64,000 bases of DNA from Amia ocellicauda. Lineage: Eukaryota > Chordata > Actinopteri > Amiiformes > Amiidae. Below are positions 2,753-48,265 of the stretch, in pieces (within the stretch, counting starts at the first letter, position 1; each line of letters begins with the position of its first letter). The notes under the pieces are model-generated. The model was not told where the DNA came from. It searched no databases and was given only the letters and a program-made list of their open reading frames with translations. The stretch is from assembly GCF_036373705.1 (NCBI RefSeq), contig NC_089851.1, forward strand, positions 57,145,997-57,209,996, in the 5' to 3' direction. The translations under genes were made by a program, and so were the position numbers.

Positions 2753-2852
2753 CGTATGTTGCATTCAACGACAAAGAAAATCGTGTGCTGGAAATGATTT
2801 TTGGCAACTGTGAAGGAACTGCACGACTGCAGCAACCACAACACCTCTGTCT

Positions 2853-2926
2853 GTCTCTGTGGCGCAATCGGTCAGCGCGTTTGGCTGTTAACCAAAAGGA
2901 TGGTGGTTCGAATCCACCCAGGGACG
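2853..2926 (+). tRNA. tRNA-Asn (GTT)
   Basis: A 74-nt intronless tRNA decoding AAC and AAU. The acceptor stem GTCTCTG/CAGGGAC has the T4-G69 wobble, with discriminator G73. The anticodon arm is TTTGG-CTGTTAA-CCAAA with anticodon GTT, and the T arm is GGTGG-TTCGAAT-CCACC. The A box is TGGCGCAATCGG and the B box GGTTCGAATCC, both intact. The first 20 nt differ from human tRNA-Asn-GTT by at most a base or two from memory. No CCA is encoded. A T4 terminator follows at 2933-2936. The gene converges on the Thr-TGT gene 164 bp away. This is the reference sequence for the other Asn copies. Confidence 0.98.
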
Positions 2927-2932
2927 GCCCAC

Positions 2933-2936
2933 TTTT
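2933..2936 (+). terminator. Pol III T4 terminator of tRNA-Asn
   Basis: TTTT starts 6 nt after the discriminator base and is followed by a C-rich run. The same T4 lies 80-83 bases after the first base of each of the other 13 Asn copies. Confidence 0.9.
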
Positions 2937-3033
2937 CCCCCCGCCCCTTGTTATTGTTTCTACTTCTGGCGGACAGCTTGCCAGACTGTGGCTACAGTAA
3001 CCTTAAGCTGCTTGCTGTGGATGGCCATCTTGC

Positions 3034-3038
3034 AAAAA
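3034..3038 (-). terminator. first T5 downstream of tRNA-Thr(TGT)
   Basis: TTTTT on the minus strand, 52 nt beyond the 3' end of the Thr-TGT gene. A weaker TTTAT (3083-3087) lies just after the gene and might act as a non-canonical terminator. The arrangement is the same in other cassettes. Confidence 0.55.
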
Positions 3039-3090
3039 TGTATTGAGCGTTTAGAAACTTCCTTTCCATTGCCTAGGCCAACATAAACCA

Positions 3091-3164
3091 AGGCACTGCT
3101 GGGAGTCGAACCCAGGGTTTCCTGTTTACAAGACAGGCGCTTTGACCAACTAAGCCACGGTGCC
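3091..3164 (-). tRNA. tRNA-Thr (TGT), subfamily I
   Basis: A 74-nt cloverleaf with anticodon arm CCTGT-CTTGTAA-ACAGG, anticodon TGT, decoding ACA (and possibly ACG by wobble). The acceptor strands GGCACCG and CAGTGCC leave C6 opposite A67, a mismatch shared by every TGT copy in the window. The T arm is CTGGG-TTCGACT-CCCAG, discriminator T73. The A box TGGCTTAGTTGG and B box GGTTCGACTCC are intact. The sequence is close to the Thr-AGT gene beside it, so the two are probably isoacceptor paralogues. Position 26 is G here; most other TGT copies have A. Confidence 0.95.
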
Positions 3165-3206
3165 AGGACTCTCCCATTCCCCAGTGCCTACACTCAGGCG
3201 TAAGGC

Positions 3207-3237
3207 AAAAAACAAAACCAAACAAAACAAAACAAAA
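3207..3237. repeat. (AAAAC)n tract, short, with CC interruption
   Basis: 31 bp, the shortest tract in the window, identical in length to the one in cassette 9. Confidence 0.95.
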
Positions 3238-3523
3238 TCTGGATGCAGGCTGCAACAAAGGAAGCACACAGAGGTGAAAACGTAAGGTTGACGGGAGCAA
3301 CAAGCTCCCTGTTGCGACTGTCCAGGGGCGGCAATGGGAATTGGACGTTGGCCGTAGCGCTTGTCCTTTGGGTTCTGGTTCTTCTTTACAAACCGGCGTC
3401 TGTCCAGTTGGCTTTCCGGTTCATTACATCCTCTGATGGCTTTACGATAAGCCTATCTTGCTAAAACTGATGGTCGACAAAGCGGAAGCACAAGCTTCGC
3501 AAGGAGCACAGAAAGCCCGCCTA

Positions 3524-3597
3524 AGGCACCGCTGGGATTTGAACCCAGGACCTCCTGTTTACTAGACAGGCACTTTAACCAACTAAGCCACGGCGCC
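3524..3597 (-). tRNA. tRNA-Thr (AGT)
   Basis: Matches the reference at 370-443 except C25 to T, which changes the G10-C25 pair to a G-U wobble. Anticodon AGT and both promoter boxes are intact. The change is shared only with the copy at 34844-34917. Confidence 0.96.
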
Positions 3598-9142: not shown

Positions 9143-9242
9143 CGTATGTTGCATTCAACGACAAAGAAAATCGTGTGCTGGAAATGATTTTTGGCAACTG
9201 TGAAGGAACTGCACGACTGCAGCAACCACAACACCTCTGTCT

Positions 9243-9316
9243 GTCTCTGTGGCGCAATCGGTCAGCGCGTTTGGCTGTTAACCAAAAGGATGGTGGTTCG
9301 AATCCACCCAGGGATG
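9243..9316 (+). tRNA. tRNA-Asn (GTT)
   Basis: Matches the reference at 2853-2926 except C72 to T (9315), turning the terminal G1-C72 pair into G-U. Boxes A and B and the anticodon are intact; T4 at 9323-9326. Shared with the copy at 39265. Confidence 0.96.
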
Positions 9317-9480
9317 GCCCACTTTTCCCCCCGCCCCTTGTTATTGTTTCTACTTCTGGCGGACAGCTTGCCAGACTGTGGCTACAGTAACCTTAAGCTG
9401 CTTGCTGTGGACGGCCATCTTGCAAAAATGTATTGAGCGTTTAGAAACTTCCTTTCCATTGCCTAGGCCAACATAAACCA

Positions 9481-9554
9481 AGGCACTGCTGGGAGTTGAA
9501 CCCAGAGTTTCCTGTTTACAAGACAGGTGCTTTGACCAACTAAGCCACGGTGCC
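9481..9554 (-). tRNA. tRNA-Thr (TGT) variant
   Basis: Relative to 3091-3164: G26 to A, C48 to T (altering the G15-C48 tertiary pair) and G57 to A inside the B box (GGTTCAACTCC, still purine-57). The anticodon is TGT. It keeps the common C6-A67 mismatch. Shared with the copy at 39503. Confidence 0.93.
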
Positions 9555-9596
9555 AGGACTCTCCTATTCCCCAGTGCCTACACTCAGGCGTAAGGC

Positions 9597-9627
<31 letters not shown>

Positions 9628-9707
9628 CAAAACAAAACAAAACAAAACAAAACAAAACAAAACAAAACAAAACAAAACAAAACAAAACAAAACAAAACAA
9701 AACAAAA
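9597..9707. repeat. (AAAAC)n tract
   Basis: 111 bp, pure apart from the initial extra A run. Twenty bp (four units) longer than its paralogue in cassette 10. Confidence 0.97.
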
Positions 9708-9990
9708 TCTGGATGCAGACTGCAACAAAGGAAGCACACAGAGGTGAAAACGTAAGGTTGACGGGAGCAACAAGCTCCCTGTTGCGACTGTCCAGGGGCA
9801 ATGGGAATTGGACGTTGGCCGTAGCGCGTGTCCTTTGGGTTCTGGTTCTTCTTTACAAACCGGCGTCTGTCCAGTTGGCTTTCCGGTTCATTACGTCCTC
9901 TGATGGCTTTACGATAAGCCTATCTTGCTAAAACTGATGGTCGACAAAGCGGAAGCACAAGCTTCGCAAGGAGCACAGAAAGCCCGCCTA

Positions 9991-10064
9991 AGGCACCGCT
10001 GGGATTTGAACCCAGGACTTCCTGTTTACTAGACAGGCGCTTTAACCAACTAAGCCACGGTGCC
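9991..10064 (-). tRNA. tRNA-Thr (AGT)
   Basis: Differs from the reference by G4 to A, which improves the acceptor stem (A4-U69 instead of G-U), and by G45 to A in the variable loop. Anticodon and boxes are intact. Shared with the copy at 39993. Confidence 0.96.
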
Positions 10065-34072: not shown

Positions 34073-34172
34073 CGTATGTTGCATTCAACGACAAAGAAAA
34101 TCGTGTGCTGGAAATGATTTTTGGCAACTGTGAAGGAACTGCACGACTGCAGCAACCACAACACCTCTGTCT

Positions 34173-34246
34173 GTCTCTGTGGCGCAATCGGTCAGCGCGT
34201 TTGGCTGTTAACCAAAAGGATGGTGGTTCGAATCCACCCAGGGACG
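34173..34246 (+). tRNA. tRNA-Asn (GTT)
   Basis: Identical to the reference; T4 at 34253-34256. Confidence 0.98.
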
Positions 34247-34410
34247 GCCCACTTTTCCCCCCGCCCCTTGTTATTGTTTCTACTTCTGGCGGACAGCTTG
34301 CCAGACTGTGGCTACAGTAACCTTAAGCTGCTTGCTGTGGACGGCCATCTTGCAAAAATGTATTGAGCGTTTAGAAACTTCCTTTCCATTGCCTAGGCCA
34401 ACATAAACCA

Positions 34411-34484
34411 AGGCACTGCTGGGAGTCGAACCCAGGGTTTCCTGTTTACAAGACAGGCGCTTTGACCAACTAAGCCACGGTGCC
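34411..34484 (-). tRNA. tRNA-Thr (TGT), subfamily I
   Basis: Identical to 3091-3164 (G26), with the C6-A67 mismatch. Confidence 0.95.
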
Positions 34485-34526
34485 AGGACTCTCCCATTCC
34501 CCAGTGCCTACACTCAGGCGTAAGGC

Positions 34527-34557
34527 AAAAAACAAAACCAAACAAAACAAAACAAAA
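34527..34557. repeat. (AAAAC)n tract, short
   Basis: 31 bp with one CC interruption, as in cassette 2. Confidence 0.95.
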
Positions 34558-34843
34558 TCTGGATGCAGGCTGCAACAAAGGAAGCACACAGAGGTGAAAA
34601 CGTAAGGTTGACGGGAGCAACAAGCTCCCTGTTGCGACTGTCCAGGGGCGGCAATGGGAATTGGACGTTGGCCATAGCGCTTGTCCTTTGGGTTCTGGTT
34701 CTTCTTTACAAACCGGCGTCTGTCCAGTTGGCTTTCCGGTTCATTACGTCCTCTGATGGCTTTACGATAAGCCTATCTTGCTAAAACTGATGGTCGACAA
34801 AGCGGAAGCACAAGCTTCGCAAGGAGCACAGAAAGCCCGCCTA

Positions 34844-34917
34844 AGGCACCGCTGGGATTTGAACCCAGGACCTCCTGTTTACTAGACAGGCACTTTAACC
34901 AACTAAGCCACGGCGCC
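34844..34917 (-). tRNA. tRNA-Thr (AGT)
   Basis: C25 to T (G10-U25 wobble) as in 3524-3597; otherwise reference. Confidence 0.96.
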
Positions 34918-39164: not shown

Positions 39165-39264
39165 CGTATGTTGCATTCAACGACAAAGAAAATCGTGTGC
39201 TGGAAATGATTTTTGGCAACTGTGAAGGAACTGCACGACTGCAGCAACCACAACACCTCTGTCT

Positions 39265-39338
39265 GTCTCTGTGGCGCAATCGGTCAGCGCGTTTGGCTGT
39301 TAACCAAAAGGATGGTGGTTCGAATCCACCCAGGGATG
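39265..39338 (+). tRNA. tRNA-Asn (GTT)
   Basis: C72 to T (39337; G1-U72), as in 9243-9316. T4 at 39345-39348. Confidence 0.96.
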
Positions 39339-39502
39339 GCCCACTTTTCCCCCCGCCCCTTGTTATTGTTTCTACTTCTGGCGGACAGCTTGCCAGACTG
39401 TGGCTACAGTAACCTTAAGCTGCTTGCTGTGGACGGCCATCTTGCAAAAATGTATTGAGCGTTTAGAAACTTCCTTTCCATTGCCTAGGCCAACATAAAC
39501 CA

Positions 39503-39576
39503 AGGCACTGCTGGGAGTTGAACCCAGAGTTTCCTGTTTACAAGACAGGTGCTTTGACCAACTAAGCCACGGTGCC
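39503..39576 (-). tRNA. tRNA-Thr (TGT) variant
   Basis: Identical to 9481-9554 (A26, T48, A57). The base pattern just upstream differs by one change (CCAGCACTC instead of CCAGGACTC). Confidence 0.93.
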
Positions 39577-39618
39577 AGCACTCTCCTATTCCCCAGTGCC
39601 TACACTCAGGCGTAAGGC

Positions 39619-39649
<31 letters not shown>

Positions 39650-39709
39650 CAAAACAAAACAAAACAAAACAAAACAAAACAAAACAAAACAAAACAAAAC
39701 AAAACAAAA
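39619..39709. repeat. (AAAAC)n tract
   Basis: 91 bp, uninterrupted. Confidence 0.97.
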
Positions 39710-39992
39710 TCTGGATGCAGACTGCAACAAAGGAAGCACACAGAGGTGAAAACGTAAGGTTGACGGGAGCAACAAGCTCCCTGTTGCGACTGTCCAGGGG
39801 CAATGGGAATTGGACGTTGGCCGTAGCGCGTGTCCTTTGGGTTCTGGTTCTTCTTTACAAACCGGCGTCTGTCCAGTTGGCTTTCCGGTTCATTACGTCC
39901 TCTGATGGCTTTACGATAAGCCTATCTTGCTAAAACTGATGGTCGACAAAGCGGAAGCACAAGCTTCGCAAGGAGCACAGAAAGCCCGCCTA

Positions 39993-40066
39993 AGGCACCG
40001 CTGGGATTTGAACCCAGGACTTCCTGTTTACTAGACAGGCGCTTTAACCAACTAAGCCACGGTGCC
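39993..40066 (-). tRNA. tRNA-Thr (AGT)
   Basis: Identical to 9991-10064 (A4, A45). Confidence 0.96.
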
Positions 40067-45779: not shown

Positions 45780-45879
45780 CGTATGTTGCATTCAACGACA
45801 AAGAAAATCGTGTGCTGGAAATGATTTTTGGCAACTGTGAAGGAACTGCACGACTGCAGCAACCACAACACCTCTGTCT

Positions 45880-45953
45880 GTCTCTGTGGCGCAATCGGTC
45901 AGCGCGTTTGGCTGTTAACCAAAAGGATGGTGGTTCGAATCCACCCAGGGACG
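45880..45953 (+). tRNA. tRNA-Asn (GTT)
   Basis: Identical to the reference; T4 at 45960-45963. Confidence 0.98.
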
Positions 45954-46117
45954 GCCCACTTTTCCCCCCGCCCCTTGTTATTGTTTCTACTTCTGGCGGA
46001 CAGCTTGCCAGACTGTGGCTACAGTAACCTTAAGCTGCTTGCTGTGGATGGCCATCTTGCAAAAATGTATTGAGCGTTTAGAAACTTCCTTTCCATTGCC
46101 TAGGCCAACATAAACCA

Positions 46118-46191
46118 AGGCACTGCTGGGAGTCGAACCCAGGGTTTCCTGTTTAGAAGACAGGTGCTTTGACCAACTAAGCCACGGTGCC
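46118..46191 (-). tRNA. tRNA with Thr body and TCT (Arg) anticodon
   Basis: The sequence equals the subfamily II Thr-TGT gene (13962-14035) except for one base at 46156 (c to g on +). The anticodon loop becomes CTTCTAA, anticodon TCT, which pairs with AGA (Arg). The rest of the cloverleaf, the A box and the B box are unchanged, including the family's C6-A67 mismatch. By established identity rules, ThrRS reads anticodon bases 35-36 and ArgRS favours C35, so charging could be lost or shifted. If charged with Thr it would misread Arg codons. A single-copy sequencing error or a neutral pseudogene is the alternative. Confidence 0.9.
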
Positions 46192-46233: not shown

Positions 46234-46264
<31 letters not shown>

Positions 46265-46364
46265 CAAAACAAAACAAAACAAAACAAAACAAAACAAAAC
46301 AAAACAAAACAAAACAAAACAAAACAAAACAAAACAAAACAAAACAAAACACAACAAAACAAAA
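46234..46364. repeat. (AAAAC)n tract, longest
   Basis: 131 bp with one ACAAC interruption near 46351, shared with cassette 12. Confidence 0.97.
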
Positions 46365-46650: not shown

Positions 46651-46724
46651 AGGCACCGCTGGGATTTGAACCCAGGACCTCCTGTTTACTAGACAGGCGC
46701 TTTAACCAACTAAGCCACGGCGCC
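46651..46724 (-). tRNA. tRNA-Thr (AGT)
   Basis: Identical to the reference at 370-443. Confidence 0.97.
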
Positions 46725-46745: not shown

Positions 46746-47853
46746 GATAGTAGAATAACAGCAGATCACGGACCGCTGTCAATCAGGTTCTTGCCTTGCC
46801 GTCCATCCATCCATCCATCTATCTATGACTCTCAATATCTAACTCTCTTGCTTGCTATCGCTCCCCCAATGGTCAGTAGCATAGTAGCATAACAGCAGAT
46901 CACGGACCACTGTCAATCAGGTGCTTGCCTTGCCATCCATCCATCCATCTGTCTATCTATCTATCTATGACTCTTGACATCTAACTCTCTTGCTTGCTAT
47001 CGCTCCCCCAATGGTCAGAAGCAAAGTAGCATAACAGCAGATCACGGACCACTGTCAATCAGATGCTTGCCTTGCCGTCCATCCATCCATCTATCTATCT
47101 ATCTATGACTCTCGATATCTAACTCTCTTGCTTGCTATCGCTCCCCCAATGGTCAGTAGCATAGTAGCATAACAGCAGATCACGGACCACTGTCAATCAG
47201 ATGCTTGCCTTGCCGTCCATCCATCTATCTATCTATCTATCTATGACTCTTGATATCTAACTCTCTTGCTTGCTATCGCTCCCCCAATGGTCAGTAGCAT
47301 TGTAGCATAACAGCAGATCACGGACCACTGTCAATCAGATGCTTGCCTTGCCGTCCATCCATCCATCCATCTATCTATCTATGACTCTTGTTATCTAACT
47401 CTCTTGCTTGCTATCGCTCCCCCAATGGTCAGTAGCATTGTAGCATAACAGCAGATCACGGACCACTGTCAATCAGATGCTTGCCTTGCCGTCCATCCAT
47501 CCATCTATCTATCTATATATCAATGACTCTCGATATCTAACTCTCTTACTTGCTATCGCTCCCCCAATGGTCAGTAGCATAGTAGCATAACAGCAGATCA
47601 CGGACCACTGTCAATCAGATGCTTGCCTTGCCGTCCATCCATCCATCCATCTATCTATCTATGACTCTTGTTATCTAACTCTCTTGCTTGCTATCGCTCC
47701 CCCAATGGTCAGTAGCATAGTAGCATAACAGCAGATCACGGAACACCGTCAATCAGATGCTTGCCTTGCCGTCCATCCATCCATCTATCTATCTATCTAT
47801 CTATGACTCTCGATATCTAACTCTCTTGCTTGCTATCGCTCCCCCAATGGTCA
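46746..47853. repeat. satellite array A11
   Basis: About 8 monomers. It carries a TCTATATATCAATG variant near 47513 that also occurs at the end of A10 near 45440, showing that the A10 end and A11 arose by one duplication. No gene is seen. Confidence 0.94.
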
Positions 47854-48191: not shown

Positions 48192-48265
48192 AGGCACTGC
48201 TGGGAGTCGAACCCAGGGTTTCCTGTTTACAAGACAGGTGCTTTGACCAACTAAGCCACGGTGCC
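48192..48265 (-). tRNA. tRNA-Thr (TGT), subfamily II
   Basis: Identical to 13962-14035. Its sister cassette 11 carries TCT, so the anticodon change arose after these two cassettes split. Confidence 0.95.

Follow-up and report, generated by a model that had tools for sequence, protein, structure and literature searches.

Does a tRNA gene that combines a threonine-type body with an arginine anticodon in the genome of Amia ocellicauda represent a change of tRNA identity, or is it an ordinary mutant copy within a large tandem array? The gene lies at 46118-46191 on the minus strand of the window, by which we mean the whole 64-kb stretch of DNA that was analysed (C2:57145997-57209996, in the 63.6-Mb contig C2 of a 988-Mb genome of 385 contigs).

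A threonine-type tRNA gene with an arginine anticodon

ARAGORN identified the gene at 46118-46191 as tRNA-Arg(tct), and the 13 other genes in the same cassette slot of the window as Thr(tgt). An earlier sequence-only reading had traced this to one base, 46156, which turns TGT into TCT in an otherwise majority-type Thr gene with intact internal promoters and a sister gene at 48192 that keeps TGT, and our comparisons bear out each of these points. When the sequence common to 7 of the 14 TGT-slot genes of the window is taken as the majority TGT gene, the TCT gene differs from it only by G to C at tRNA position 35 (gene position 36). On the plus strand, 46156 is g in the TCT gene and c in 13 of 13 other TGT-slot genes. 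The relevant features are:

46118..46191, minus strand: Thr-body tRNA gene with a TCT anticodon (ARAGORN, Rfam and comparison with the majority TGT gene)
46155..46157, minus strand: anticodon TCT, with the change at 46156 (G to C on the gene strand, tRNA position 35)
46173..46184, minus strand: A-box region, TGGCTTAGTTGG, same as in the TGT genes
46129..46139, minus strand: B-box region, GGTTCGACTCC, same as in the TGT genes
48192..48265, minus strand: sister Thr(TGT) gene, with the same sequence as the majority TGT gene

The two box regions of the TCT gene were named by the box consensus, and we take them to be its A and B boxes.

The TCT gene is an intact tRNA according to both ARAGORN and the Rfam tRNA covariance model (RF00005), which scored it at 69.2 bits as compared to 69.0 bits for the majority TGT gene. 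Its body has 1 difference from the Thr-TGT body and 11 from the Thr-AGT body, and its acceptor-stem and discriminator bases are the same as in its Thr sisters. With a body of one class and an anticodon of another, the gene is an alloacceptor anticodon shift, and we confirm it as a Thr(TGT)-type tRNA gene with an arginine anticodon, the base itself being that of the assembly. The insertion of a true Arg-TCT gene into the array is ruled out by a body only one base away from Thr-TGT. We likewise reject a structural effect of the base change, as the predicted fold and energy are equal for the TCT and TGT forms, the predicted minimum being less than a full cloverleaf in either.

A tandem array of tRNA cassettes

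The window holds 43 tRNA genes, with 14 Asn(GTT) genes on the plus strand and 13 Thr(TGT), 15 Thr(AGT) and the one Arg(TCT) on the minus strand. These form Asn / Thr-TGT / Thr-AGT cassettes in tandem, separated by a satellite with a period of ~142 bp, and a search of the window revealed no closed ORF of at least 150 aa. Across the 250 kb scanned, 12,700 bases of which are N, we counted 157 tRNA genes, and the many near-identical cassettes in tandem make this a satellite-like tandem tRNA array. One literature search for such arrays gave nothing among the matches listed. Around the TCT gene, the cassette comprises:

45879..45956, plus strand: tRNA-Asn(GTT) gene of this cassette, followed at a short distance by TTTT
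46236..46364: (AAAAC)n tract that separates the two Thr genes and differs in length among cassettes
46651..46724, minus strand: tRNA-Thr(AGT) gene of the same cassette (tRNA gene call)
46747..47853: satellite between cassettes with a 138-bp period (142 bp in the window-wide arrays), from repeat analysis

Several further observations were made on these cassettes. All 14 Asn genes of the window have TTTT close behind them, and the nearest TTTT lies 52 bases downstream of the 14 TGT-slot genes and 57 bases downstream of the 15 AGT genes. Termination of the array Thr genes may therefore be inefficient or may use other signals. In the acceptor stem of the TGT-type body, C6 and A67 are mismatched in 14 of 14 TGT-slot genes, and 13 of the 15 AGT genes in the window carry G4-U69, a pair that, according to a review, allows mischarging of vertebrate tRNA-Thr by AlaRS (PMC9976931). 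We also found the same tRNA variants in cassettes ~30-31 kb apart (2852-3597 and 34172-34917; 9242-10064 and 39264-40066), which indicates a larger duplicated unit within the array.

Age of the change and the possibility of error

Over a 433-bp cassette core, the changed base is the only difference between the TCT cassette and the consensus of the 14 window cassettes. A 415-bp piece containing the TCT gene had 50 full-length matches in the 250 kb scanned, itself included, and 12 of the 49 others had a single mismatch, which must be the changed base because the query itself carries it. In the same 250 kb, a second 420-bp cassette piece had 11 other identical copies. Given 12 copies that differ from it over 415 bp by base 35 alone, the TCT change would be very young, or else an assembly error.

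A 24-base context with TCT matched once in the genome, which rules out a repeated TCT subfamily. The same context with any anticodon had 62 genome matches (TGT 56, CGT 4, TCT 1 and TAT 1). Two loci elsewhere in the genome with the same 17-base stem and TCT (L035 and L036) were rejected as not being tRNAs.

The exact TCT gene is thus a singleton, and an array as highly repetitive as this one may contain consensus errors or mis-joined copies. An assembly or sequencing error would mean that the true base is c (TGT) and that the TCT gene does not exist. However, the change is a clean substitution rather than a homopolymer indel, and the sampled cassettes contain both singleton and shared variants throughout (51 copies hold 74 distinct variants, of which 24 are singletons, with gap positions included). 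Moreover, there are other anticodon switches with at least two copies each, so it is evident that such changes do arise in the array, and we consider an error unlikely.

Other anticodon switches in the same genome

The Thr-type anticodon stem CCTGTCTNNNAAACAGG had 717 matches in the genome, compared to 5 for a reversed control, and the middle anticodon base was changed in 11 of these and the third base in 4. Reading the resulting 15 loci with non-Thr anticodons revealed 8 Thr bodies and 7 chance matches that are not tRNAs. These 8 Thr bodies, a count covering the exact anticodon stem and leaving out copies with a mutated stem, carry TCT (1), TAT (3), CTT (3) and CGA (1), and 2 of the 8 are damaged genes. 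Together with genes on Asn bodies, the switched copies other than the TCT gene include:

L031 and L032, contig C2: Thr body with TAT, intact, two copies one base apart
Third TAT gene: Thr body, 5' part lost
L038 and L039, contig C26: Thr body with CTT, intact, two identical copies
Further CTT gene: Thr body, 3' end altered
L044, contig C26: Thr body with CGA, intact
G000:C2:57212515-57212592 and 57214989-57215066, shortly past the window: Asn body with CTT (Lys), two genes

The two Asn-body CTT genes are in neighbouring cassettes 2.5 kb apart, and each has, as we read it, two mismatched acceptor pairs. An Asn-body pattern search gave 7 CTT and 30 ATT matches; the 7 CTT matches, 5 of which are known as pattern matches alone, all lie on C2 from 55.18 to 57.22 Mb. 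Some switched forms are present in two copies, as seen for Asn-body CTT, Thr-body TAT and Thr-body CTT. The TCT change is therefore not a one-off kind, since other switches occur on both Thr and Asn bodies in the arrays of this genome.

Constraint on the array tRNA genes

Variants were counted in two cassette pieces, with 50 copies of one and 51 of the other, out of several hundred cassettes. Without CpG transitions, the 226 gene sites had 31 distinct substitution variants and the 571 non-gene sites had 62 (Fisher p = 0.33, a rough value as the copies compared are related), and the tRNA genes together are therefore not visibly more conserved than the spacers. By gene, the same variants numbered 9 in 78 sites for Asn, 6 in 74 for the TGT slot and 16 in 74 for AGT, and the neighbouring spacers had 18 in 161 sites and 22 in 280, so that the TGT-slot gene with 6 in 74 compares with 18 in 161 for its neighbouring spacer. 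Strong purifying selection on the array tRNAs is not seen in these gene and spacer counts, with the caveat of position T33. The array contigs C2 and C26 yielded no T33 variant, and three pattern matches, counted unread, fall on other contigs. In contrast, position 35 was changed in 7 Thr-body copies, and 6 of 8 pattern matches for position 37, also counted unread, are on C2 or C26. This difference hints that some constraint remains on the array tRNAs, although the numbers are small.

CpG transitions behaved differently, with 13 distinct ones at 24 CpG sites in the genes (p = 0.0008 versus other changes in genes, similarly rough) and 11 distinct ones at 44 CpG sites outside the genes. Their enrichment in the genes would be consistent with methylation of the array in the germ line, without proving it.

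The sequence-only reading had also presented the gene as a naturally arising chimeric isoacceptor. As a description of the gene this holds, with a Thr body one base away from 12 copies over 415 bp. The implication that it is special or consequential is not supported, given at least 8 Thr bodies with non-Thr anticodons and no excess conservation of the sampled genes over the spacers.

Identity elements and possible charging

A review of identity elements includes G35 and U36 among eukaryotic Thr determinants in its Table 1 and lists C35, U36, A38, U20 and C20a as eukaryotic Arg determinants (PMC9976931), in agreement with the roles of C35 for ArgRS and G35/U36 for ThrRS put forward earlier for this gene. 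For mammals, plants and E. coli, the same review gives A20 and C35 as the principal Arg determinants. The TCT gene has lost G35, retains U36, A37, A38 and U73, and has all five bases of the Arg list above. Its U20 and C20a stand without A20, which makes Arg charging of its product uncertain.

An Arg-TCT query gave at least 40 matches elsewhere in the genome, and the six loci that were read have A20 and an insertion of ~15-19 bases after the anticodon, named as an intron by ARAGORN in one of them (L050) only. The TCT gene has neither A20 nor the insertion and is thus not a canonical vertebrate-type tRNA-Arg(TCT) gene. When the insertion is taken as an intron, the changed loop of the TCT gene, CUUCUAA, is the same as the loop of 5 of the 6 Arg-TCT loci, and the sixth (L050) has G at position 37. 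Because the Thr determinant G35 is lost and A20, likely the main Arg determinant, is absent, poor charging of the TCT tRNA appears likeliest from its bases, with Arg or Thr charging possible.

If the gene were expressed and its product charged with Arg, a UCU tRNA on a Thr body would constitute an identity switch adding AGA-decoding capacity. In E. coli work by Saks, Sampson and Abelson, an Arg tRNA reportedly went from UCU to UGU, a step that would mirror the change in the TCT gene. As cited in PMC3923123 and PMC3868979, the E. coli tRNA-Arg with UGU (Saks, Sampson and Abelson 1998) concerns the same two identities and, in the account of PMC3923123, rescued the loss of tRNA-Thr(UGU), but it was a laboratory rescue in a bacterium and ran in the opposite direction. 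Likewise, yeast Lys and Met tRNAs acted as Thr tRNAs after an anticodon change only, with mistranslation undetected (PMC8092322). The shared loop and the five bases on the eukaryotic Arg list (PMC9976931) also speak for such a switch. However, A20, a main Arg determinant in that review, is absent here and present in the six Arg-TCT loci, and the TCT gene is one copy among hundreds in a genome with dedicated Arg-TCT genes elsewhere. We therefore regard an Arg identity switch as highly improbable.

Alternatively, an expressed gene keeping some Thr charging would lead to misincorporation of Thr at Arg AGA codons. The unaltered acceptor-stem and discriminator bases would be compatible with this, and human tRNA anticodon mutants, including Thr AGT to AAT, segregate in people (PMC6779403). 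However, the gene has lost G35, which the review lists as a eukaryotic Thr determinant (PMC9976931), and the Arg-TCT genes would dilute whatever effect a single copy had, so this outcome strikes us as exceedingly improbable.

Relation to known systems

Anticodon shifts between identities have been reported across eukaryotes, with high redundancy proposed as a facilitator (Rogers and Griffiths-Jones 2014, PMC3923123). As in the TCT gene, a single substitution in those shifts gives a body of one identity the anticodon of another; alloacceptor shifts most often affect the middle base (35), which fits the change of base 35 here, and the reported Asn/Lys shifts from GTT to CTT fit the Asn-body CTT genes. 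Those shifts were found by synteny between related species, whereas we compared copies within one genome. When every kind of anticodon switching is counted, isoacceptor changes among them, it is reported for 58 of 68 eukaryotes surveyed (PMC3868979), and identity-changing switches have been described in yeast strains and in further species, three of them fish (PMC8092322).

In zebrafish, 60% of predicted tRNA genes are on chromosome 4, where CpG methylation is near-complete, and in early embryos most of the tRNA genes of this species lack a signal of open chromatin (PMC11574265). Like the array here, the chromosome 4 clusters contain very many repeated tRNA genes on one chromosome (PMC11574265, PMC11417395). 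For the zebrafish Thr-AGT/TGT/CGT group, isodecoder usage shifts in development (PMC11574265, PMC11417395), whereas the present array is known from its sequence. A possibly related case comes from a 2010 survey that depicts Arg(TCT) and Thr(AGT/TGT) genes clustered together with TCT pseudogenes (PMC2888827): TCT-anticodon genes stand among Thr(AGT/TGT) genes, as one does here, though the legend of its Figure 4 gives neither body identity nor species. That survey places R-T and K-N pairs among the most frequent in Danio and reports nearly all Danio pairs as parallel, whereas the Asn genes here are opposite to the Thr genes (PMC2888827).

Origin and meaning of the TCT gene

We consider it likely that the TCT gene is a neutral, recent anticodon mutation in one redundant copy of a very large tRNA array, and that it is probably silent. 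A point mutation would have hit the middle anticodon base of one Thr(UGU) copy in the Asn/Thr/Thr tandem array. We infer that the change is neutral because there are hundreds of redundant copies, most of them probably silenced, and it would thus have been neither selected nor purged. Silencing of the array is suggested by analogy with zebrafish chromosome 4 and by the CpG transitions, which are frequent in the array both inside and outside genes. If transcribed, the TCT tRNA would read AGA/AGG, and it would most likely be poorly charged and swamped by true Arg-TCT tRNAs.

Against silencing, zebrafish egg and early-embryo tRNAs have been tied to repetitive clusters (PMC11417395), and the array genes may therefore be active. 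Taken further, the array would be a reservoir of anticodon drift in redundant copies (TCT, TAT, CTT and CGA on Thr bodies and CTT on Asn bodies), with some of the switched forms spreading as their cassettes are copied and some undergoing transcription in the female germ line. We give this joint proposition very little credence; if it were true, eggs would contain chimeric tRNAs of ambiguous charging as a small pool.

On the preferred reading, that of a neutral mutation in a redundant copy, the TCT gene is an ordinary mutant copy and a known kind of event, and the set of switched copies tells more than the TCT gene by itself. Automated anticodon-based tRNA counts can misname array copies, and for the 250 kb scanned they gave one 'Arg' and two 'Lys'. 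The array names a few switched genes as candidates for expression, and it offers a natural count of the anticodon changes that occur once redundancy removes constraint.
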